Assembly: GCA_910589415.1 (NCBI GenBank)
Contig: OU342633.1
Location: 6,610,858-6,674,857 of the forward strand
Direction of reading: 5' to 3'
Length of the DNA: 64,000 nt
Source: Malachius bipustulatus
Taxonomy: Eukaryota > Arthropoda > Insecta > Coleoptera > Melyridae
The translations under genes were made by a program, and so were the position numbers. Under the pieces are notes generated by a model. The model did not search any database. It was not told the DNA's origin and saw only the letters and a list, made by a program, of their open reading frames with translations. Of the stretch, positions 16,333-30,202 are shown one piece after another (the stretch's first letter is position 1; each line of letters starts with the position of its first letter).

Positions 16333-17010
16333 GAAATTTTAGTAGAAGATCATATAGAAATTCTATTTCAAAGGCCAAACTTGACCATAACAATGAATAT
16401 TTAAAGTCTTCAAGGAATCGTATTAGATCTTCTTGGCGTGTTATAAACGATATAAACGATAAACGTCCTAAAAAAGTGAATTACGATATATGTGATATTT
16501 TGCCCGATCGGTTTAATATGTTTTTTACTAGTATTGCCGACAAAATTGAAGATAAATTACCTGTACCTGTACATGATCCTATTGATCTAATGCATAATGT
16601 TAAGACTAATAATAATACCCTCAACAGTTATTTCTAGTTTAGTGACATTTCCAGTTGCGCTGTCAGACATGTGATTGATGGCTTGATATCAAGCAATGCC
16701 AGTGATGCATATGGCATAACTGTTGCAATGGTAAAGCATACAAAGGACATATTGATTCCACCTCTTACAAAACTTTTAAATACTTGTATTAGGGAGGGTG
16801 TTTTTCCCTCAGTGTTGAAAGGTTCTGTAGTCGTCCCCATTCATAAGAAGGGTTCTAAGAGTGACCGTAATAATTTTAGATCTATTTCATTGTTACCTGT
16901 GTTTTCTAAATTTTTTGAGAAAATAATGCACAGACAACTCACTGTATATTTTGAGGAAGCAGGCCTCTTGTCTGATGGCCAGTTTAGTTTTCGCGCTGGT
17001 CGTTCCACGG
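16333..17010 (+). pseudogene. LINE-a fragment: linker and start of RT
   Basis: The sequence reads as the stretch between endonuclease and RT of a jockey/CR1-like LINE ORF2 (SSWRVINDINDKRPKK, FNMFFTSIADKIE), then RT fingers (SNASDAYGITVAMVKH, VVPIHKKGSKSDRNNFRSIS). It has one stop (TAG at 16636) and some decay. It ends abruptly inside the FRAGRST motif at about 17008-17014, where GC-rich Gypsy-K gag sequence begins. Both ends are truncated. Confidence 0.72.
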
Positions 17011-18060
17011 CCAGTTGAGGGGCGTGCGGCACCTCGGCGCCGAAAACCAGCAACGCCGACCTCTAAAGATTGCCTGCTCCCGACCGAGGCGACGGACACG
17101 AAAACGTGCTGGATTTACCTGCTGAAGAAAGAAGAGTTAGACGCAGAGTTAGAGAGAATCGGTGCCCGTGTCCTGGTACGGTGGAAGAAAAACGCCGGGT
17201 ACTGTCGAACCTGATCAAATCGATGCCCAGATTCAACCCCAAAGGCGAAACCACCTCAGAGCCCAACGCGTCTGCCGTCCGACCGACGACGACGACGAGC
17301 ACAACGTCGGCGCTGTCCGTGTACAACGTTACGTCCGCTCCACCCAGCTCTCATGGGTCGCCGCCTGGAATCTGAGGTACGACGGCAGCACCGACCCCGT
17401 TGCATTCCTGGAGAGGCTGGAGGAGATGCGCGAGATTTACGAAGTGTCCGAGGAGCGCATGCTGCGTGCAATGCCGCTGGTGCTCGAAGGGAACTGTCTG
17501 GCATGGTACCGGAACAACGCCGGCTCCCGAGCGATTTGGGAGGATTTTTTGGTGGCGTTTCGGAAGTTTTATTTCCGGAATCTACTTTTTCGAGCTGGAG
17601 GCCGAGATCAGTCGCCGAGTTCAGGGCCCCACCGAAGACGTGCTGCATTACATCACGGCCATGTAGACATTATTCCGACGGCACGGAGCTGTCCCGAGGT
17701 ACCGACAGATGGACTGGCTAAACAGGAATATGCGGAGAGCTAAAGCAAATGCTCTGGCAACACCGACACCCGGACGTGGGTTCGTTGATGGAAGCAGCCA
17801 AATCGGCCCAGGACGTCCTCGCTGAACTGCGAGCCGCCAGAAATAAGCCCCGGCTCGAACCAAGGCTCGACAGGCACCGCACAGAGGCCAGTTACGGACC
17901 ACACACCGACACCCCCGTAGCTGCGACTCCTCCTCCCGCCGTAACACGGTCCCCACCGTCTCACCATAGCCCGTCGCCGCCCAGAGCCGTTGTGACCCCC
18001 GGGGACACCGCCGCGGAGTCAGCGACCCGCAAGACGGTCAGGTTCGCCACCCCTGAACAG
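17011..18060 (+). pseudogene. gag: Gypsy-K Gag, without zinc knuckles
   Basis: The N-terminal YLLKKEELDAELERIGA motif (about 17119-17170) resembles a SAP-like start known from some insect Gypsy Gags. The capsid part reads NLRYDGSTDPVAFLERLEEM…CLAWYRNNAGS (17369-17530) and LEAEISRRVQGPTEDVLHYI (17590-17665), a Retrotrans_gag pattern. The C-terminal part is Pro-rich and basic (17749-18055). At least four frame changes and stops are needed to follow it. The CCHC knuckles and protease that should come next are absent; RT begins directly. Knuckles of the right type occur instead at 23745-23880. Confidence 0.75.
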
Positions 18061-19689
18061 CGACGTTCCCGTCCCATATGCTGGAGATCCGACGCAGCGT
18101 CGCCGCCTCGAGGCATTCCTAAACACGGAAATGGCAGCGTTTTCAGTCGTGAAAGGGACGACCGACGTCGCCGTGCACCGTATAAAGGTGAAGGAGGTGG
18201 AACCGATTAAACAGAGACACCGACCGATGAACCCGAAGCTGCTGGAAATAGTGAACGCCGAGGTAGACAGGATGCTAGAAGAGGTGATCGAACCGTCCAA
18301 TAGCCCCTGGAACTCCCCGGTTGTCATCGTGCGCAAGAAAGATGGCACTCCGAGATTCTGCGTCGACTTTCACAAGGTGAATGAGGTGTCAGAAAAGGAC
18401 GCGTACCCCCTGCCGTTTGTATCAGCTATCCTCCATAAACTCAGGGAGACACGGTTCATATCCAGCCTAGATCTCAGACAAGGATACTGGCAGATACCCC
18501 TGACACCGGAGAGCCGACCGATAATCGCATTCACCGTGCCGGGGAGGGGCTTATTTCAATTCCGGGTAATGGCATTCGGCTTACACTCCGCCGGCGCCAC
18601 CTTTCAACGATGCCTGGACCGAGTTTTGGGGCCCGAGACCGAACCCTTCGTTTTCGCCTACCTCGACGATATTGTGGTGCTGGGGAGGACGTTCGAGGAA
18701 CACCTGGACAACCTCCGGGAGGTGTTCCGCCGACTGAAGGACGCCAACCTCAAATTAAACTCAGATAAATGCAACATCTGCCAGCGCACGTTGAAATATC
18801 TAGGGCACGTAGTCACCGCCGATGCCATCTCCACCGACCCGGACAAGGTAGCCTGCATCCGGGAGGTGCCACCCACGCGAACCATCAGACAGCTCGGAGG
18901 TTTCTCGGCATGGCAGGCTGGTACCGCCGTTTCATTCCCGACTATGCGCGGATAACGACGCCGCTTACGAAGCTCCTGAAGAAGTCCCAACGTTGGCATT
19001 GGGGGCCTGACCAAGAAGACGCCTTTACGTCTTTGAAGACGAGCTTGACCGAGGCGCCGGTGCTGACCTGTCCCGACTTTAGTCAGCCGTTCACGCTACA
19101 GACCGATGCGTCCGACGTCGGGATCGGCGCGGCCCTTACGCAGAAGTTCGAAGACCACGAACGAGTGATTTCCTATGCCAGCCGCACGCTCAACAAGGTC
19201 GAAAGAAATTACACCGTGTCCGAACGGGAGTGTTTAGCCATAGTTTGGGGAGTGCAGAAGATGCGATCGTACCTGGAGGGGTACCGTTTTACCGTAGTAA
19301 CCGACCATCAGGCCCTCCGTTATCTGCACTCGATGAAATCACCCGACGGACGAGTCGCCCGATGGACCCTGAGCCTGCAATCGTTCGACCTCGACGTGGT
19401 CTACCGGAAGGGTTCGGCCAATAAAGTAGCGGACTTTTTGTCCCGCAGTCCCATCGAACCAGCGCCCCCGGAAGGAGAAGCCAGAAAGATCCAGGCAGTG
19501 GCGAGAGACCCGAAATCCGTCCCCGACTTCAGAGTTGTAGATGGCCGTTTGCAACGACGAATTGTGGACGTGAACCGAGCACACGATCGGCAGACGTGGA
19601 CCAGTGGAAAGTGTGTGTACCAGCCGGACTCCGGTGCGCCATTCTGGCGGAGAACCACGACACGGCAACGGCAGGCCACCTGGGGGTAG
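18061..19689 (+). pseudogene. pol: Gypsy-K reverse transcriptase and RNase H
   Basis: RT starts with the linker LEAFLNTEMAAFSVV and continues to SPVVIVRKKDGTPRFCVDF, DLRQGYWQIPL and YLDDIVVLG, all canonical. One shift at about 18895 moves to the frame carrying RRFLGMAGWYRRFIPDYA. RNase H is complete in motif terms (LQTDASDVGIG, SERECLAIVWG, VVTDHQALRYL). A second shift at about 19600-19680 leads to integrase. No protease sequence precedes RT. The catalytic motifs are all retained; inactivity comes from frameshifts only. Confidence 0.85.
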
Positions 19690-20717
19690 CGAAAACCTGC
19701 GCGCGACTCGCCGAACGTTATTACTGGCCAGGTATGTTTCGGGAGGCGGCGAAATACGTTCGAAGGTGTCACCACTGCCAGAGCTACAAATCATCGCAGC
19801 AGGAGACACCGGGGTTAATGCAACCGTCCGTGGTGCGGGATCCCTGGGAGACCGTCTCCGTCGACCTGATCGGCCCGTTGCCGAGATCAGCCAAGGGCAA
19901 CGCCTACGCCGTCGTAGTCCAAGACCGGTTTACGAAGTGGATGGAATGCCGCCCCATCCGAACCGCGACCGCTGCGCCGATCATTAGGATGCTCCTCGAG
20001 TCGGTCATCACCAAGTTTGGGTGCCCGAAGACCCTGATTTCCGATAACGGGCGGCAGTTCATCGGGTCTAGCTTTACGGACTTCCTCAAGAGCTGGGGTA
20101 TAAGACACCGATTAACACCCGTCTATGCGCCGCAATGTAACCCCGTCGAACGGCAGAACCGCACCCTCAAGACAATGATCGCGCAATTTTGCGGTTCCGA
20201 TCACCGTAAATGGGACCTGCGCATTCCGGAGTTGGCGATGGCATACAACACCTCCCGACACGAATCCACCGGTTTCACCCCAGCCTATTTGAACATGGGG
20301 CGAGAATTGCACGTGCCGAGTCGGTTACCGACCGAGGGTCACGCCGCCAAGGAACCGTCCGCGGCCGAGTTTGCACCCCGTGTCCGCCGTCTCGTCGACC
20401 TCCGAGAGCTATACCAGCTGGTGCGCTTGAACCTCGGACACGCAACGGAGAACCAGAAGCGCTACTACGACCTGCGTCGTCGAGATTGGAGATGTCGGGT
20501 AGGCGACAAGGTGATGAGGGTCGAGCACCACCTATCCTCCGGCGGTAAACACTTCGCCGCCAAGCTGGCACCGAAATATTCGGGGCCGTATACCGTCGTC
20601 AAAGTCCTCTCTCCAGTGGTCTATGACCTAAAGGACGAATCCGGGCGCCGAATCCGCAGGATCCACGTAAAGGACCTCAAGCCGTATTCGACCGAGCCGC
20701 GCACACAGCCCAATTGA
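19596..20717 (+). CDS. pol: Gypsy-K integrase
   Basis: One open frame of 373 residues. The zinc domain has His in TATAGHLG and the Cys pair in CHHCQ. The core has VDLIGPLP, ISDNGRQF and NPVERQN (D,D,E). The C-terminal domain contains RVGDKVMRV and YSGPYTVVKV, ending in the basic, Pro-containing tail usual in this group. No chromodomain is seen. The first codons are read-through from the preceding frame, so the protein would be released from Gag-Pol rather than started here. Kinase coding sequence begins 86 bp downstream. Confidence 0.87.
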   Translation: MDQWKVCVPAGLRCAILAENHDTATAGHLGVAKTCARLAERYYWPGMFREAAKYVRRCHHCQSYKSSQQETPGLMQPSVVRDPWETVSVDLIGPLPRSAKGNAYAVVVQDRFTKWMECRPIRTATAAPIIRMLLESVITKFGCPKTLISDNGRQFIGSSFTDFLKSWGIRHRLTPVYAPQCNPVERQNRTLKTMIAQFCGSDHRKWDLRIPELAMAYNTSRHESTGFTPAYLNMGRELHVPSRLPTEGHAAKEPSAAEFAPRVRRLVDLRELYQLVRLNLGHATENQKRYYDLRRRDWRCRVGDKVMRVEHHLSSGGKHFAAKLAPKYSGPYTVVKVLSPVVYDLKDESGRRIRRIHVKDLKPYSTEPRTQPN

Positions 20718-20759: not shown

Positions 20760-20803
20760 GCTGATGAAACTGACGCCGCCGTTTCCGTAGGTCCGCCCGC
20801 CCT
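20760..20803 (+). promoter_or_regulatory. Putative splice acceptor before the kinase ORF
   Basis: CTGATGAAACTGAC (possible branch site) is followed by GCCGCCGTTTCCGTAG|G; the kinase ATG follows 15 bp later at 20804. Placement just after integrase matches where env acceptors lie. Inferred only. Confidence 0.35.
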
Positions 20804-21222
20804 GATGGAAGGAGACGAGCCGATGGGGGAGGATCAACTGTGGAGAGAGACCCCTTCGCGTGCCACTACCTGGTCGGGGGGAGCTGGGTAGGGGTGCCTA
20901 TGGGTCCGTGCGTTACTGCCATCACGTGCCCAGCAACACTGACCGGGCCGTAAAGCTCATCCGGGCGATAGACCAGGACGCCAGGGCGACCGCCGTGATG
21001 GAGGTCCGGTGCGGGCTGGAACTGAACAGTCCGAATGTAATATCGATGCTGGACTCGATTCATCACCCACAGGCCTTTTTCCTCGCCTTCGAGTTGGCGG
21101 AGGCGGATCTGGGGGGCTTTTTGGACACCGGCGAGGCCATGTTAGGGCCAACGCTGTTTCACCTGGGGGCACAGCTAATGCGGAACACTGCCGGGTCAGC
21201 CGGCTTATCCATAGGGACATTA
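20804..21222 (+). pseudogene. Protein kinase, N-lobe to HRD motif
   Basis: After a short acidic leader the sequence shows a glycine-rich loop (GRGAYGSV, about 20887), the VAIK equivalent RAVKLI with its Lys, an alpha-C Glu in MEVRCGLEL, a PNVISMLDS beta-4 segment, a hinge-like AFFLAFELAEADLGGFL, then SRLIHRD at about 21196-21220. This is the start of a Ser/Thr-type kinase domain. Two single-base frame changes are needed, one in the G-run near 20876 and one near 21190. Base composition matches the flanking integrase, and the gene is in the same orientation. LINE-b cuts it right after HRDI. The donor family is not determined. Confidence 0.82.
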
Positions 21223-22684
21223 TGGTTTTGATGATATTAATTCCCGGATCATTAAGTCTTGTGCTGAAGAAATATCGGGTTCTCTCTCTGTGGTTGTTAA
21301 TGGATGATTTTCTTCGGGTGTATTTCCGTCTTCCTTGAAGGTCTCTCGATGCATACCGTTGTACAAGAAGGGTTGTCCGTTGGATCCCGAAAACTACCGA
21401 CCTCTTGCAATTCCCAGTACATTGTCAAAGATCATTGAAAAAATAATGGCGTCAAGATTAATTGATTATTTGAATAAAAGAAACTTGTTTGATCCTCACC
21501 AACATGGATTTAGACAGGGTCGTTCGACTACAACGGCAATGGTGGAGTACCTGAATGAGCTGTATCGGAGGTTGGACGATGGTCATTCTTGCTTGGGTGT
21601 ATTTTTGGATCTGAGCAAGGCTTTCGATCTAGTTGATCACCGTATTTTGCTCGACAAATTATTCCGACTGGGCATCATGGGAGTTGCCAACGAATGGTTT
21701 CGATCATATCTCACCCATAGATTCCAGTATGTTGACATAAACGGTAAAGCATCTGAATTTTTGGTATCTGATCACGGTGTACCACAGGGTTCGGTTCTTG
21801 GGCCACTTTTGTATATTATTTACGTGAGTGACATGACTGTGGATGGTCGAACAGTATATGCTGATGATACCTCATTGTTGGTAAGCGCAGATGAAACTAA
21901 TGCACTCGTTTCAAATGCCAATGATTCCCTGGCTACACTAAGTAAATATTTTAGTAACAATGCTCTACATTTAAATGCAAAGAAAACCGTCATGCTTGAT
22001 TTCACAATATCTCATAATAAGCCGAATATTGGATACTATGTGCGGCTGAATGGTAAATCTGTCAAGCGGATAGACTCAGCTAATTTCTTGGGGCTGTATG
22101 TTGATCGTTGCCTTACCTGGAACGATCATCTAAACGTTTTGTGTGGTAGATTGGCTGCTGGATGTTTCGCTCTGAGGACGTTATCACTCAGTGTGGGTTT
22201 GTCTGTGAAGAGGCTTTACTATTTTGGTTACATCCACTCTCTTATATCTTATGCCATTATAGCTTGGGGTGCGTCAGGTTGTGGTATGCATCGAGTATTG
22301 ATGCTCCAAAAGAGGGCCGTACGCATTATGATGGGGGTTGGAGGGATGACTAGTTGCCGAGAGTTGTTTCGGAGGGCTGGAATATTGACGGCTCCCTCAA
22401 TATATATATACCAACTGGCTGTATATGCACGAGAGACTTTGCCCAATGAACATACACTGGGAAGGAATCATCATTATTTAACTAGAAGTAATTTATTGGA
22501 GTTTCCTCGTCATCGGACGTCTGCCTATCAGCATAGTCCTCTTTATAAAGCAATCCGAGTATTTAACCATCTGCCCAGCCAACTTAAATGCAACTCTCCG
22601 TCATTATTCAAAAAAGAATTGGAGAGGCTGCTAATTTTTAAAGCCTATTACAGCCTTGACGAGTATATGACCGACGCCATGTGA
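21223..22684 (+). pseudogene. LINE-b reverse transcriptase
   Basis: RT motifs are CIPLYKKGCPLDPENYRP, FRQGRSTTTAMVEYL, FLDLSKAFDLVDH, GVPQGSVLGPLLYI and the catalytic TVYADDTSLLV, followed by a jockey/CR1-like C-terminal region ending near YYSLDEYM. One stop (TGA) lies at about 21301-21303; otherwise the frame is open for 449 residues. The endonuclease and ORF1 are lost by 5' truncation. A related but distinct family is LINE-e at 50122-52330. Confidence 0.88.
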
Positions 22685-22848
22685 TGCGGGGAATATAACT
22701 GTGTGATGACTGTGATGGTTATAGTATAGTGTATGTAAATGTTTTTACGATTATATTTTGTATGCTTTTATATTCTGTTTGTGACTTGGCCTATACATCT
22801 ACATGTCTCTTGGCTCAATAAAGACTATTATATATATATATTATTATT
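21223..22848 (+). mobile_element. LINE-b, 5'-truncated non-LTR element in the kinase
   Basis: It starts without endonuclease, carries RT and a C-terminal tail, and ends in AATAAAG plus TA/TTA repeats. A short duplication ATTA lies at 21219-21222 and 22849-22852. Removing it rejoins the kinase HRD loop in frame. It is AT-rich against its GC-rich host. Confidence 0.85.
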
Positions 22849-23318
22849 ATTAAACCAGGGAACATCCTGACGTGGGGACGAGGCCTAGACATGGTGGCCA
22901 AATTGGGCGATTTCGGCCTGGCCGTACGAGTTCCGGATGCGACGCCGAGGCCCTACGGCTTCGCGGGGACCTCCGGCTTCATGGCCCCAGAACTGGAGAG
23001 TGAGAAGGCGTACTCTATCAGCGCCGACGTCTGGTCGTGCGGCGCCACACTCATGTGTGCTGCGACCGGCGGCCGAGTGGTCATTGGGGACCGGGTACCG
23101 GCCGCTAGACGGAACAAGCGGCGCGGCCGCGCCAAGTCCGAGACCCCGTCGAGGTCGAACCCGCTGGATGACCGCGCCGAGGCGTGGCTGCGCGCCATGC
23201 TTGCGACCACACCGGAAGACCGACCGACGCCCTCGAACGCGAGGCTCGACCGGCGACCCAGGATGAGACGCCTCCCGAACCGACGGCCTCCCCGCCAGAA
23301 GTCGCCCCCTCGATGAAG
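22849..23318 (+). pseudogene. Protein kinase, catalytic loop to C-lobe
   Basis: It continues in frame from the ATTA duplication: IKPGNIL completes the HRDxKxxN loop. Then VAKLGDFGLAV (the metal-binding DFG), GTSGFMAPELE (APE) and SADVWSCG (helix F Asp), and a final PEDRPT (subdomain XI Arg). So every invariant motif of an active kinase is present across the two halves. The region between helix F and PEDRPT contains a short basic insert (RRNKRRGRAK). The end is uncertain: frames diverge after about 23225, one stopping at 23316 and one continuing to 23372. Confidence 0.82.
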
Positions 23319-23589
23319 CATGCGGTGGTCATCCGCCTCACCGACAGTCTGCGGGAAATGATGGAGGCATAACCGCGACCCCCGCAGCTCGACGACCGCC
23401 TGAAGCGCTTGTGCCCTCCCGGCGTGCGGTGCGACAAGCAAATTAAAGTACGAACCGTGACCGACTCCGGGAGGGTGGTGCGAATACGCATACCGGCCGA
23501 CCCCCGTAAACCGTGAGCCTGCGGACACCGTGGTAGGGACCCGGCCGAGGTAGGACGACCGTAGTTAACATCGTTCATGTTTATTGCAG
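23319..23589 (+). other. Kinase 3' tail and acceptor-like site
   Basis: Short open stretches in shifting frames (for example LTDSLREMMEA and VRTVTDSGRVVRIRIP) suggest a decayed C-terminal extension. At 23550-23589, GTAGGAC…GTTAAC…TTTATTGCAG has the form of a very short intron or a 3' splice site ending exactly at the next ATG. Not proven. Confidence 0.35.
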
Positions 23590-24339: not shown

Positions 24340-24354
24340 GGGGGGGGGGGGGGG
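24340..24354 (+). other. Poly-G polypurine tract of Gypsy-K
   Basis: Fifteen consecutive G residues immediately precede the LTR start TGTAAGG. The position fits plus-strand priming; a pure G run is unusual, since mixed A/G tracts are the norm. Confidence 0.65.
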
Positions 24355-24600
24355 TGTAAGGAAGCAATGAAAATTGTCCCGTTTTAATAGGCACGATCAT
24401 GATTTCCCCCTGTTCAAATTAATAAGAGATAGGTAGTTGCAGGTCCAGAGGCATTGATATTTCTAGTTAGTATTTCTAAAGTTCTCCTAAGTAAAATCGG
24501 GTGCAAGGAATGATAGATTATTTAATAGATGTCGAATAAGATAGGTTGTCCGGGCGTTGCATTTCCGGGAACCCGGCTGGCCGGGTGTCGTGAACTTATC
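24355..24600 (+). repeat. Gypsy-K 3' LTR, part 1
   Basis: It begins TGTAAGGAAGCAATG and is the inverted match of 60200 downwards to about 59950 in the solo LTR. It breaks after ACTTATC, where LINE-c inserted. Confidence 0.88.
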
Positions 24601-25452: not shown

Positions 25453-26610
25453 ATGGAAACCAACGAAAAAACAAAACAAACAACTGAGGGACCTCCACAA
25501 GAAGGAACCTCAGAACTTAGCATGGATGCACAGGATGTGGCAGGCCCCCAGAGCCATGCCACCCTGGAACCTATGCAAGTTGAAACACACAGCTGTGCGG
25601 CCTCGCAGGGAAGTAGCAGTGCTACAAGACCAGCGAGTACGACAGCTGAACAAAAAACGGCCTCAGGGGCCCTAATACAAACCCCGAGACCTAAGCTGTC
25701 GGGTGCACAGCGTAGAAAGCTGGCAGTTGAATTCGCGAAAGCCGCTGGGGTACCAATCAAACCCAGAAGGCCGCGGACAAACCGCCAGCGAAAAAACCCT
25801 GATGGAGAGGCGGGACCCAGCAGAGCGTCAAACTCTGCATCACAGGGAACTGCCACCCCATCTGTAAAAAGGCCAAGGTCAGTGGTAAGTACTCCATCCC
25901 CAGCGATGAGTGCAACCAAAGTCCTGGCCAAAAAGCCAAAGCACGAAGGGGAGACTGTGACCTCCGAGCCTGGCGCATCCTCACAGGGTGCTACTGGCTC
26001 CGGAGTAAGCTACAGTCAAGCCCTGACGGCTTTCAAAATGGCGGTGGTAATGGAAAGTTACCCCGAAGAGCGGCTGGATCAACACCAGGCAAAACTGGTC
26101 CAGCAATCCATCATGAAGCAGGTGATGGGGGGCGTGCCTGGACTGGGGCCACAATTCAAGAGCACCAGGTTTGAGAAGGGCGTGGTCTTCATCACCTGCG
26201 CCAATGAAAAATCTAAGAGGTGGCTGGTGGACTTGGTACCGAAGCTACGACCTTGGGATGGGGCCGCACTACGTGTGGGCCCGTCCAGAGAAGTGGTGAA
26301 AGCCACTAAGGTCGTGGTCTTCATTCCTGCAGACACACCAGGCCTCGAGGAACCAACAAAAGCCTTTCGTCTGTTGGAAAACCAGAATCTGGGCATTAAA
26401 ACAGACGAATGGTCTATCATCACACAGCACAGGGAGAGGGACGGTAAGGGTACCACACTTGTGCTGTGGATCGATGAAGAGTCTCTGAAGGCTCTCGCCG
26501 GAAGGGGGTACAAAGCGTACCTCGGTTTTGGTGAGGTAACCTTCAGAGTGATGGGAGGAAAGAAGACACCCTGCAATGCTGCGGGCTCTCCAGATCAACC
26601 TGCAGCATAG
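25453..26610 (+). CDS. LINE-d ORF1 protein, DUF4780-like
   Basis: A 385-residue open frame. The first half is low-complexity (Thr, Ser, Pro, Lys) and basic (KPRRPRTNRQRKN at about 95-110). The second half, from VSYSQALTAFKMAVV to YLGFGEVTFRV, matches the DUF4780 pattern known from ORF1 of several insect LINEs and thought to bind element RNA. No CCHC knuckle is seen. The ORF2 frame begins before its stop: the two overlap by 35 bp (26576-26610) in different frames. The start is the ATG at 25453. Confidence 0.82.
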   Translation: METNEKTKQTTEGPPQEGTSELSMDAQDVAGPQSHATLEPMQVETHSCAASQGSSSATRPASTTAEQKTASGALIQTPRPKLSGAQRRKLAVEFAKAAGVPIKPRRPRTNRQRKNPDGEAGPSRASNSASQGTATPSVKRPRSVVSTPSPAMSATKVLAKKPKHEGETVTSEPGASSQGATGSGVSYSQALTAFKMAVVMESYPEERLDQHQAKLVQQSIMKQVMGGVPGLGPQFKSTRFEKGVVFITCANEKSKRWLVDLVPKLRPWDGAALRVGPSREVVKATKVVVFIPADTPGLEEPTKAFRLLENQNLGIKTDEWSIITQHRERDGKGTTLVLWIDEESLKALAGRGYKAYLGFGEVTFRVMGGKKTPCNAAGSPDQPAA

Positions 26611-29600
26611 CAAAGCTGCCTCCGCATCTCTGTGCAGACTTCTAGCTGCCGGAGATGTAGACGTAGCCCTGATTCAAGAACCTTGGCTGGTAGCCGGCCG
26701 CGTAGCAGGTTTAGGAGCAGCCAGAGGTAAGATCATTTACAATAGGGCCTACGGTAACAGCAGAACATGTATTTACGTGAAAAACGAACTAAAAGTCCTG
26801 GTTATAACACAATTATGTTTCAGGGACTTGACCACAGTAATACTGAAATATCATATGGATGGGGCAGCCAAGGAGCTTGTAGTAGCTTCATTATACCTAC
26901 CATATGACTCCACCAGTCCTCCTCCGTCACAGGAAATGGAACTACTGGTTAAGTACTGCGAGGACCATAACCTCCAGGTCATCATTGGTGTCGATGCAAA
27001 CTCCCATCACGCAGTGTGGGGCAGCAGCGACACAAACAACAGAGGTGAGTCACTGTTACAGTTTATGGTATCCAGGAAACTGGAACTTCTGAATAGGGGC
27101 AGGGAACCCACCTTTGTAACATCGAGACGGAAAGAAATAATTGACATCACCTTAGCTTCCCCTCGTATCGGCGCCCGGGTAGTCAAGTGGCGTGTATCTG
27201 ATGAACCGTCTCACTCAGATCACAGATACATTCAGCTGGAAATCAACTCCGTTGATAAGACAGCAGAGCTGTATCGCAATCCACGAAAGACTGACTGGGC
27301 GAGGTACAGGGCGGAGTTGAGGGCAAATCTAACCAATGTCAAAAGCAACATTGCATGCATATACGATATCGAGGTAGCTACAGAACAACTCCAAGTAGCC
27401 ATTACAACCTCATATCACAACAACTGTGCTCAGACACCCCGTCGGAAAGGTGGGGATGTCAGTTGGTGGAACCCCAAACTGGCGGAAATGAGACAGAAAA
27501 CACGTAAGCTTTTTAACAAAGCTAAAAAAACAGGAAAGTGGGACGAATATAAGACCACCATTACTGAATACAACAAGGAGATCAGATTTGCAAGAAGAGC
27601 TGCGTGGAGGAAGCTCTGTTAGGATGTGGAAACGACATCCGAAGGAGCAAGACTCTACAAACTCATGGCAAAAGATCCCCTGAACCCCATTGGTACCTTA
27701 AAAAGTAGCAATGGTAATTACACAGAAACCGGGAGGGAAACTCTTAAGGTACTCCTCAGAGCACACTTTCCGGACTGCAATGTAATTGAAGTGGAAGATG
27801 GCCTACACAACACTCTGGAAAACCTGAATCACAGGGTCACCAGGGAGGACTGGAGGACATCAAGACACATAATTACATATGAAAAAGTTAAATGGGCCAT
27901 AAGCTCATTTGAGCCTTACAAGTCACCTGGCCCGGACGGGATCTATCCTGCCCTTTTGGAGCAGGCGAGTGAAGATCTCACGCCGGTGCTTTGTAGGATA
28001 TTCAGAGCCAGTTTGGCACTTGGTTACATTCCGCTGGCCTGGAGAGAAATAAAAGAGGTTTTTATACCGAAACCTGGACGTAATGACTACGACGAGGCCA
28101 AGGCATATAGACCGATTAGTTTGACATCCTTTTTACTAAAAGCGATGGAAAAACTGGTTGAGAAGCATCTCAGGCAAACCTTTCTTACAGAGAGGCCATT
28201 AAGCCAGAGGCAACATGCTTTTCAACCAGGTAAATCATGCGAATCAGCTTTGCACCAGCTAGTGATGAGAATTGAAAAATCACTAGACAACAAAGAAATT
28301 GCCCTCGGGGCTTTTCTAGATATAGAGGGGGCGTTTGACAACACCTCCTTTAGCTGCATGGTATCGGCCGCTAGAAGACATGGCGTCGACGACACCACAA
28401 CTAGGTGGCTGAGCGCTATGTTGGAAGGCAGAAGAGTCCAAGCAACTCTGTTTGGCGAGACGATGCGGGTCACCGTCACCAAAGGATGCCCACAGGGCGG
28501 AGTCCTATCTCCGTTGCTGTGGGACATGGTGGTGGATGACCTGCTCATCAAGCTAAACAACAAAGGTTATTATACCCAAGGCTATGCGGATGACATAGTC
28601 ATACTGGTCATGGGGAAATACACTAAAACCATCTCAGAGCTCATGCAAGGGGCTCTGAATATCGTGGAGGAATGGTGCCTTGGGGCGAAGCTTCGCGTAA
28701 ACCCTGTCAAAACGGCACTGGTCCCCTTCACCAAAAGAAGCAAGATGGAGGAATTAACTCCACCCATCTTCTTCAATGAACGGCTGCAGGTGAACGACCG
28801 GGTCAAATATCTGGGAATAACCCTGGATGCAAAACTGACCTGGAATCTTCACCTGCAGAAAGCGATTAATAAAAGTAAAATGGCACTGATGGCTTGTAGA
28901 AGGTCATTCAGTAAAACATGGGGACTGAAACCACGCATGGTACATTGGCTGTATATTGCCGTGGTCAGGCCCATACTAACATATGGCTGTTTAGTCTGGT
29001 GGCCAAAGATCGACCAGAAACAAGCCATTATGAAAATTCAAAGTGTTCAAAGGCTTGCATGCTTAGGCATCACGGGAGCCATGAACACTACATCAACGAC
29101 AGCACTGGAGGCCATACTTGACCTGCCTCCTCTTGACATTCATATTAAGAGCGAGGCACGATTGGGCGCCTACAGGCTGAAACAAAACCAAAACTGGGAT
29201 AAACCTGGGAAAACCGGGCATTCCAGAATAACTGATATCATCGCAGATCCTATCCTGGAAATGCAATCCGATGGTATGAGTACTACGATATCATTTGTAA
29301 AACCATTCAAGGTTCTAATGGACTGGAAAGAATGGCAACAAATGGAACACCTGTGCCTGAAAAAAGGGCTGGTCTGGTACACTGACGGCTCAAAGACAGG
29401 GACAGGTACCGGAGCTGGAGTGCATGGGGTGGTCCCTGGATGCAATATTTACGTGCCACTGGGGACTCATGCCAGCATCTTCCAGGCCGAAATAAATGCA
29501 ATTAGGCTATGCGTTGGAGAGAATACCAGAAGGAACTATCGAGGTAGGGAAATCTACATCCTCTCCGACAGTCAGGCTAGCCTGAAAGCCCTTGCAGCTT

Positions 29601-30202
29601 ATGAAATCAGATCAAAACTGGTCTGGGAATGCCTGCAAGACCTCATTGACTTAGCCAGGTGTAACGTGGTGACACTAGTTTGGGTTCCGGGTCACCGTGG
29701 GACGCCTGGTAATGAGGCTGCAGATCAACTAGCCAAGAAAGGCGCTGGGATAAACTACACTGGGCCCGAACCAGTGTTTGGCATCCCAAAGAACACTGTA
29801 CGCGGGGCGGTGGCTCAGTGGATAAGAACACAACATAGAGCACACTGGAACCGTATAACAGGAAACAAACATGGTAAGGTGATGATCAAGGAGCCCTCTC
29901 AAAACCTTGCCAGACAGATACTGCAACTAAATAGAATGCAGATCAGAACGGTGGTGGGTCTTCTCACAGGACACTGCCACCTAAGAGTACACCTACATAA
30001 ACTGGGGATATACAGAGAAGACCCAATTTGTAGACTCTGCAATGAAGAAGACGAGACAGCTTCTCATGTGATATTCGAGTGTCCAGCACTCGCACGAACG
30101 CGCTATGCGGTCCTGGGACCAATCAGTCCCGGGAGCCATCTGGCGGAAAAAACCTTGGTTAGCGGGCTGCTAAACCTTGTCAAAGGAACGGAGCTCTTCT
30201 AA
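26576..30202 (+). pseudogene. LINE-d ORF2: endonuclease, RT, RNase H
   Basis: Endonuclease: LQINLQHSKAA, LIQEPW, GVDANSHHAVWGS and SHSDHRYI (residues 1-220). A single in-frame TAG at 27620-27622 separates it from RT. RT: RPISLTSFLLKAMEKLVE, FLDIEGAFDN, GCPQGGVLSPLLW and GYADDIVIL. RNase H: WYTDGSKTGTGTGAGV, AEINAIRL, LSDSQASLKAL and WVPGHRGTPGNEAADQLA, with all acidic residues. The C-terminal CRLCNEEDETASHVIFEC is a zinc-binding end. Apart from the TAG the frame is intact for about 1200 residues. It nicks target DNA and primes reverse transcription there. Confidence 0.9.

Follow-up and report, generated by a model that had tools for sequence, protein, structure and literature searches.

The 64,000-nucleotide stretch of the Malachius bipustulatus genome analyzed here (contig OU342633.1, positions 6,610,858 to 6,674,857 of the forward strand; "the window" refers to this whole stretch) contains the remains of a Ty3/Gypsy retrotransposon in which a protein kinase is coded on the + strand right behind the integrase. 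The frame of the integrase stops at 20717, the start region of the kinase has an ATG at 20805, and homology with the kinases of related copies reaches approximately 23516. An earlier note on this DNA had described a kinase directly after a Gypsy integrase on the same strand, and this is borne out by the matches of the window to the kinase of a full-length relative (L018) and by the Pfam Pkinase model on the latter. The end given in that note (23318) falls some 200 bases short of the homology. Pieces of the window kinase align to residues 14-128, 141-271, and 267-364 of the L018 kinase with 78-85% identity. Given the E values (2.8e-70 for the best piece against L018, 1.8e-38 for Pkinase on the full-length L018 kinase), the similarity is not due to chance. 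The parts of this copy are listed below (RT, reverse transcriptase; LTR, long terminal repeat; LINE, long interspersed nuclear element; ORF, open reading frame).

17007..18091, + strand: gag remnant, frame-broken, colinear (83-87%) with gag of L018, L019, L011, L021, and L022
18088..20717, + strand: pol (RT, RNase H, integrase), approximately 770 bases of the protease region absent; 87-91% and colinear over nearly the whole stretch in 9 of 17 fetched copies
20776..20790, + strand: splice-acceptor-like site just 5′ of the kinase start; like sites in 9 of 10 subfamily representatives
20805..21222, + strand: 5′ part of the kinase (glycine loop, AVK lysine, C-helix, to HRDI), frame-broken; 78% to L018 residues 14-128, with a DNA identity of 74-95% to other copies
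21223..22848, + strand: LINE-type insertion, foreign to the element; a repeat found elsewhere with up to 97% identity, absent from the other copies
22849..23516, + strand: 3′ part of the kinase (KPGN, DFG, APE, DVWSCG, conserved C-terminal tail), frame-broken; 85% (residues 141-271) and 79% (267-364) to L018
23590..24128, + strand: ORF4, gene of a double zinc-knuckle protein, frame-broken, homologous to L018 ORF4; an acceptor-like TTGCAG abuts its ATG
24340..24600, + strand: G tract (24340-24354), then the start of the 3′ LTR (TGTAAGGAAG...) from 24355; 13 of 17 fetched copies align

The kinase frame changes near the N-terminus, around the HRD motif, and before the tail, and a TAA lies within the tail. 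The insertion of about 1.6 kb separates the codons of HRDI from those of KPGN, as the earlier note had it. The two halves are adjacent in other copies of the element, and the copies of the insertion elsewhere in the genome come without a kinase. Both gag and pol are also damaged, the 770 bases missing between gag and RT being present in L018, and neither a 5′ LTR nor a leader was found upstream of the gag remnant. At the other end, similarity to the 3′ LTR, whose start reads TGTAACGAAG in L018 and L023, was traced to 24600. The double zinc knuckle belongs to a gene separate from the kinase, ORF4. In L018 the open Gag frame matches Retrotrans_gag (PF03732), and Pol matches RVT_1, RT_RNaseH, Integrase_H2C2, and rve. 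The window copy is likely to be a dead member of a Ty3/Gypsy lineage organized as LTR-gag-pol-kinase-ORF4-LTR. Taken alone, this broken, LINE-split copy would also be compatible with a host kinase that landed by chance next to a single Gypsy element. Such an event is scarcely credible in view of the same gene order in dozens of copies at many loci, and a one-off insertion is ruled out by the multicopy association of integrase and kinase.

Copies of the element and selection on the kinase

The genome searched is that of the window (544 Mb, 52 contigs), and the genome lists hold the best-scored candidates (112 of 255 for the kinase and 144 of 3347 for the integrase). Integrase and kinase matches were crossed by asking for a kinase on the same strand at most 2.5 kb downstream, using 68 of 146 integrase rows and 77 of 115 kinase rows. 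The crossing set aside 68 integrase rows at 48-50% identity, eight integrase fragments (69-93%) ending before residue 240, and two fragments reaching residue 240 (C2:54362231 and C16:9365078), each with a kinase match close downstream. A kinase lies behind the integrase in 41 of the 53 entered copies with an integrase identity of 65-100%, i.e., in 6 of 15 of group A (96-100%), 9 of 9 of group B (91-94%), and 26 of 29 of group C (65-77%). In group D (51-54%, the ~52% group) the crossing finds a kinase in 2 of 15 entered copies, and a search with a group-D kinase (L036) adds a third, split by an insertion. Among the 17 near copies fetched (L009-L025), the integrase is directly upstream of the kinase in 15, the zinc-knuckle region is present in 14, and the LTR start in 13. 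LTR-bearing insertions with the order integrase-kinase-zinc knuckle, which the earlier note had proposed to look for, are therefore present in several genome copies. An integrase is also found upstream in 11 of the 14 divergent kinase loci read, the exceptions being L032, L038, and L039, and 17 of the 115 listed kinase matches are free of stops over 340 or more of the 364 residues. The kinase is a multicopy gene of the element, retained at least in groups A to C.

Some loci differ in structure. L032 (C17:20551700-20555000) has a kinase frame of 275 amino acids, with tail, integrase, and ORF4 absent within the 3.3 kb read, and is either a truncated element or a stray kinase. L038 (C13:11628600-11631500, − strand) has an open frame of at least 816 amino acids with five tandem kinase-type C-terminal tails and no kinase domain. 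The 37-kb contig C31 has six listed integrase matches of the ~50% Gypsy group.

Copy L018 has uninterrupted frames for Gag (445 amino acids), Pol (1093), kinase (364), and ORF4 (182). Its LTRs of 2304 bases (TGTAAC...TGTCACA) show no difference in the stretches compared between 5′ and 3′ (307 + 498 bases, 805 of 2304), and the element is bordered by a 4-base target duplication, CATC. A candidate primer site, TTTGGCGCCC, lies immediately 3′ of the 5′ LTR, and a G tract precedes the 3′ LTR. L018 therefore has the TG...CA LTRs, primer site, purine tract, and duplication of 4-6 bases of Ty3/Gypsy elements, and its Pol shows the order protease-RT-RNase H-integrase in Pfam. In another copy, L016 (C1:2824700-2834600), the kinase frame is open and LTR stretches are 99.55% identical over 1332 bases. 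The open frames, the CATC duplication, and the identical LTR samples of L018, together with the near-identical LTRs of L016, indicate that kinase-bearing elements moved recently.

Ratios of nonsynonymous to synonymous substitution rates (dN/dS, or ω) were computed by the method of Nei and Gojobori for 18 kinases and 12 integrases, for pairs with a proportion of synonymous differences below 0.72. Sequence comparisons and trees excluded near-duplicates and copies with stops in the relevant piece; L023, whose piece has a stop, was left out of the integrase alignment. Among four group-A copies the ω of the kinase is 0.11-0.18, and between groups A and B it is 0.20-0.24 at dS 0.75-0.87. The comparison suggested in the earlier note gives purifying selection, which preserves the kinase at the protein level. 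The integrase has ω of 0.08-0.12 in A-B pairs; A pairs that are very close and differ by few changes give 0.19-0.36. A functionless passenger amplified along with the element would fit the closest group, in which most copies are kinase-minus derivatives, but it is most improbable given these ω values and the frames kept across groups at about 38% kinase identity.

Origin and history of the kinase

The AlphaFold model shows a kinase fold (pLDDT, the predicted local distance difference test score, of 81) plus a small C-terminal tail that combines helices with a beta hairpin. Among solved structures, CaMKII comes closest both in sequence and in fold, and the top five fold matches have 26-30% identity. 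In a tree with 22 reference kinases, taken from protein-database matches, a grouping with CAMK kinases gains no firm support. Pfam finds only kinase families in the slot after pol, zinc knuckles in ORF4, and no envelope gene, and NCBIfam gives only kinase models, far under their cut-offs. The kinase is indeed kept as a third gene of the element, as the earlier note proposed. No separate host source gene was recognized among the listed genome matches. The best of these are kinases of other elements, and those listed without a link to any element have about 28-36% identity. Among these matches the kinase is thus not recognizably host-derived, unlike the genes of oncogene-capturing retroviruses. 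We infer a cellular origin of the captured serine/threonine kinase.

Protein-database searches, which scored only the approximately 8000 candidates sharing most words and could miss distant element kinases, gave only ordinary kinases in the best 120. The top three profile matches in the protein database bear two kinase domains. Viral contigs contain 95 kinase relatives, of which 80 were kept (22-42% identity), and no integrase relative was found among 34 pattern matches in them. Three Chk1-like proteins of the mantis shrimp Oratosquilla oratoria (P0023, P0054, and P0113) form a long-branched clade of their own; two of them have 9 and 17 cluster members, and the clade is possibly another mobile kinase family.

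The integrase tree used 25 sequences, the kinase tree 38, the comparison of ORF4, Gag, and tail motifs 12, and the tail profile 11. Integrases of groups A to C form one clade (100/100 support) and group D takes no supported position, among references that are all Pol protein-database matches and do not include BEL/Pao, retroviruses, or clades such as Mag. In the kinase phylogeny called for by the earlier note, kinases of A to C also form one clade. The profile of A-C tails ranks the L036 kinase above all of 2000 shuffles, with an E value of 1.2, below one unrelated protein. A tail-like motif after the integrase in the ~50% group (L044, L047) scored no better than shuffles and was rejected.

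Between L018 and L022, dS rises from 0.14-0.22 over the initial 900 codons of pol to 0.52 at the pol end, and reaches 0.88 for the kinase and 1.13 for ORF4. Hence, the history of the 3′ cassette differs from that of gag-pol, which is most simply explained by recombination near the end of the integrase.

ORF4, loss of the pair, and possible function

The ORF4 of L018 matches zf-CCHC (E = 3.3e-6), and its double zinc knuckle aligns with the Gag end of the same element (37% across 84 residues; E = 5e-17 when just these two sequences are compared). Because of this alignment, ORF4 probably arose from Gag or has a common origin with it. The ORF4 of group D aligns with it in the knuckles and at the N-terminus. 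Acceptor-like sites were defined as a CAG or TAG that closes a run rich in pyrimidines, with at least 7 pyrimidines of 12 (background at random positions, 0.20). Such a site lies 6-17 bases 5′ of the kinase ATG in nine of ten subfamily representatives (L036 is the one without). In five of six representatives the ORF4 ATG has a CAG at a distance of 0-2 bases on its 5′ side, and four of these are above threshold (binomial tail 0.017). Since acceptor-like sites precede both genes, spliced subgenomic RNAs are the probable messages of kinase and ORF4, like those of retroviral env.

These data make it likely, on the whole, that this is a Ty3/Gypsy lineage with a captured, selected kinase plus ORF4. 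Several results weigh against this account. Some very close kinase pairs, with few changes, have ω up to 0.45, and A or B versus C gives 0.29-0.54 at dS 1.2-2.2, near saturation. The kinase of group D may not share the capture of A-C: the tree requires two changes, although a single one suffices in 53% of the 200 bootstrap replicates, and the similarity of the L036 tail to the A-C tails is weak. The acceptor test treats related subfamilies as independent and is passed by only four of six for ORF4 at the same threshold. The subfamilies L033/L035 and L034, plus the single copy L012, look catalytically impaired from their residues. Finally, no kinase was detected in 9 of the 15 closest (group A) copies and in 12 of 15 in the ~52% group.

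Regarding catalysis, the lysine, the C-helix Glu, and APE are present in all 16 aligned kinases, HRD is altered to HRN in L012 and L034, and GFS replaces DFG in L033/L035. With their open frames and conserved C-terminal tail, L033, L035, and L034 are likely pseudokinase subfamilies, and some lineages might keep the kinase as a scaffold and not as an enzyme; this is unlikely as an explanation of the gene, the HRD aspartate being retained in 14 of 16 and the DFG aspartate in 14 of 16.

As for the missing kinases, their number among group-A and ~52% copies indicates that the kinase is not needed in cis. The earlier note had considered that a lack of the kinase in other copies would point to a one-off insertion. 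The lack applies to 9 of 15 copies of the closest group, whereas the sister groups B and C keep the kinase in 9 of 9 and 26 of 29 entered copies, and the two kinase-minus copies inspected share a secondary deletion. L040 and L041, two of the nine in group A, were inspected from the integrase to past the 3′ LTR; in both, everything between the start of the kinase and a point close to the LTR is missing, i.e., kinase plus ORF4. The deletion and its filler are the same in the two copies, which hence go back to one deletion followed by amplification. An origin from retrotransposed spliced RNAs is ruled out for both by the filler at the junction. In group D, L042 and L043, of the 12 without a detected kinase, have a common, different deletion in which the kinase and most of ORF4 are gone. 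L046 has an internal kinase deletion with ORF4 kept. Kinase and ORF4 were thus lost jointly at least twice, in copies with the integrase in a long open frame. As kinase-minus copies are common and the two inspected in group A share the kinase-plus-ORF4 deletion, kinase and ORF4 together form an accessory module that acts in trans or can be dispensed with. L016 has no gag match, its LTR end being closely followed by sequence of the gag/protease border, and seems to be a second kind of deletion derivative, without gag. About 0.8 kb separate the end of L040 (C13:234400-240400) from a frame with a match to RuvB-like 1 (E = 1.7e-55).

In the history we propose, an ancestor would have taken up a cellular serine/threonine kinase downstream of the integrase, and kinase and ORF4 would be expressed in the manner of retroviral env, via spliced subgenomic RNAs. 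With ORF4 as a second, Gag-related, nucleocapsid-like zinc-knuckle protein, the two would form a trans-acting regulatory module on the ribonucleoprotein of the element. It is a tentative proposal that the kinase acts there with ORF4, phosphorylating Gag or ORF4 or host factors handling this ribonucleoprotein. Copies minus both genes would spread all the same: complete copies might help them, or movement within one cell might not require the module.

Kinases of large DNA viruses act on the host, and the target of the element kinase might likewise be the host, with cell cycle, silencing, or immune signalling altered in favor of element expression or spread. This is conceivable, if rather doubtful. 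The kinase diverges much faster than the integrase (37-42% versus 71-77% identity, group C to L018), as genes in conflict with the host do, and it can be missing from copies that may draw on the product made by others; but its joint loss with ORF4, whose product likely binds nucleic acids, links it to the particles of the element itself. With action on the ribonucleoprotein as the preferred reading, we would suggest, again with reserve, a long-lived retrovirus-like lineage in which kinase and nucleocapsid-like protein replace env, are spliced, and travel as one recombining cassette, particle phosphorylation being a built-in switch and kinase-minus copies natural parasites.

Elsewhere in the window, positions 25453-30202 contain by eye a non-LTR retrotransposon; it has an ORF1 frame, and a stop near 27620 interrupts its second coding region. 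An Rfam scan of the window gave no match at gathering score.

Comparison with known elements

The closest known relatives of the element are Ty3/Gypsy sequences annotated as K02A2.6-like or uncharacterized in Hymenoptera (Solenopsis, Osmia, and Lasioglossum), whose RT, RNase H, and integrase likewise follow the usual order; in a comparison of Pol proteins only, identity is 56-57% to the best named and 63% to the best unnamed matches. Errantiviruses, the endogenous retroviruses of insects, have a third gene after pol, env, reached by splicing. The element likewise has a third gene after pol, apparently spliced, but this is a kinase instead of an envelope, and there is a fourth gene.

Additional ORFs that stand behind pol where env would be are already known (PMC6431247). 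The same paper describes Burro, a giant Gypsy of planarians with captured BIR, BCL2-like, ankyrin, and MATH domains; both are animal Gypsy elements with captured regulatory domains, but those of Burro lie largely within a polyprotein, and the word kinase is absent from the main text. In Phalaenopsis orchids, Gypsy elements of 25 kb carry an AlkB-type demethylase of N6-methyladenosine (m6A) in an extra ORF (PMC9289625, available part). In both lineages an enzyme was captured and became fixed as an additional ORF, the orchid one being a plant element with an RNA demethylase, and kinase does not occur as a word in the main text available. Retroviruses give further examples of host-gene capture, such as Rous sarcoma virus with src and crocodilian endogenous retroviruses with KIT-ligand or nectin3 (PMC4299795, in its available part). 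There a captured cellular gene also stands beside env or replaces it, and src is also a kinase; however, these are vertebrate retroviruses with recognizable host genes, and src is a tyrosine kinase, whereas the element kinase is of serine/threonine type and its donor is not recognizable.

No Ty3/Gypsy lineage with a protein kinase was found in the open-access literature searched, subscription papers and Repbase entries being outside this scope; the earlier note likewise knew of none described. The available portions of PMC11963269 and PMC8556966 mention no element kinase. Within the open-access literature searched, what is new relative to the known Gypsy elements with extra ORFs is a protein kinase as the captured gene.

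Such a gene bears on a wider question, as retrotransposons are thought to depend on host kinases. An element that carries its own kinase, and selects it through deep divergence, would serve as a natural experiment to show where in the cycle control by phosphorylation pays off, and the repeated joint loss of kinase and ORF4 offers comparisons with and without the pair inside one genome.
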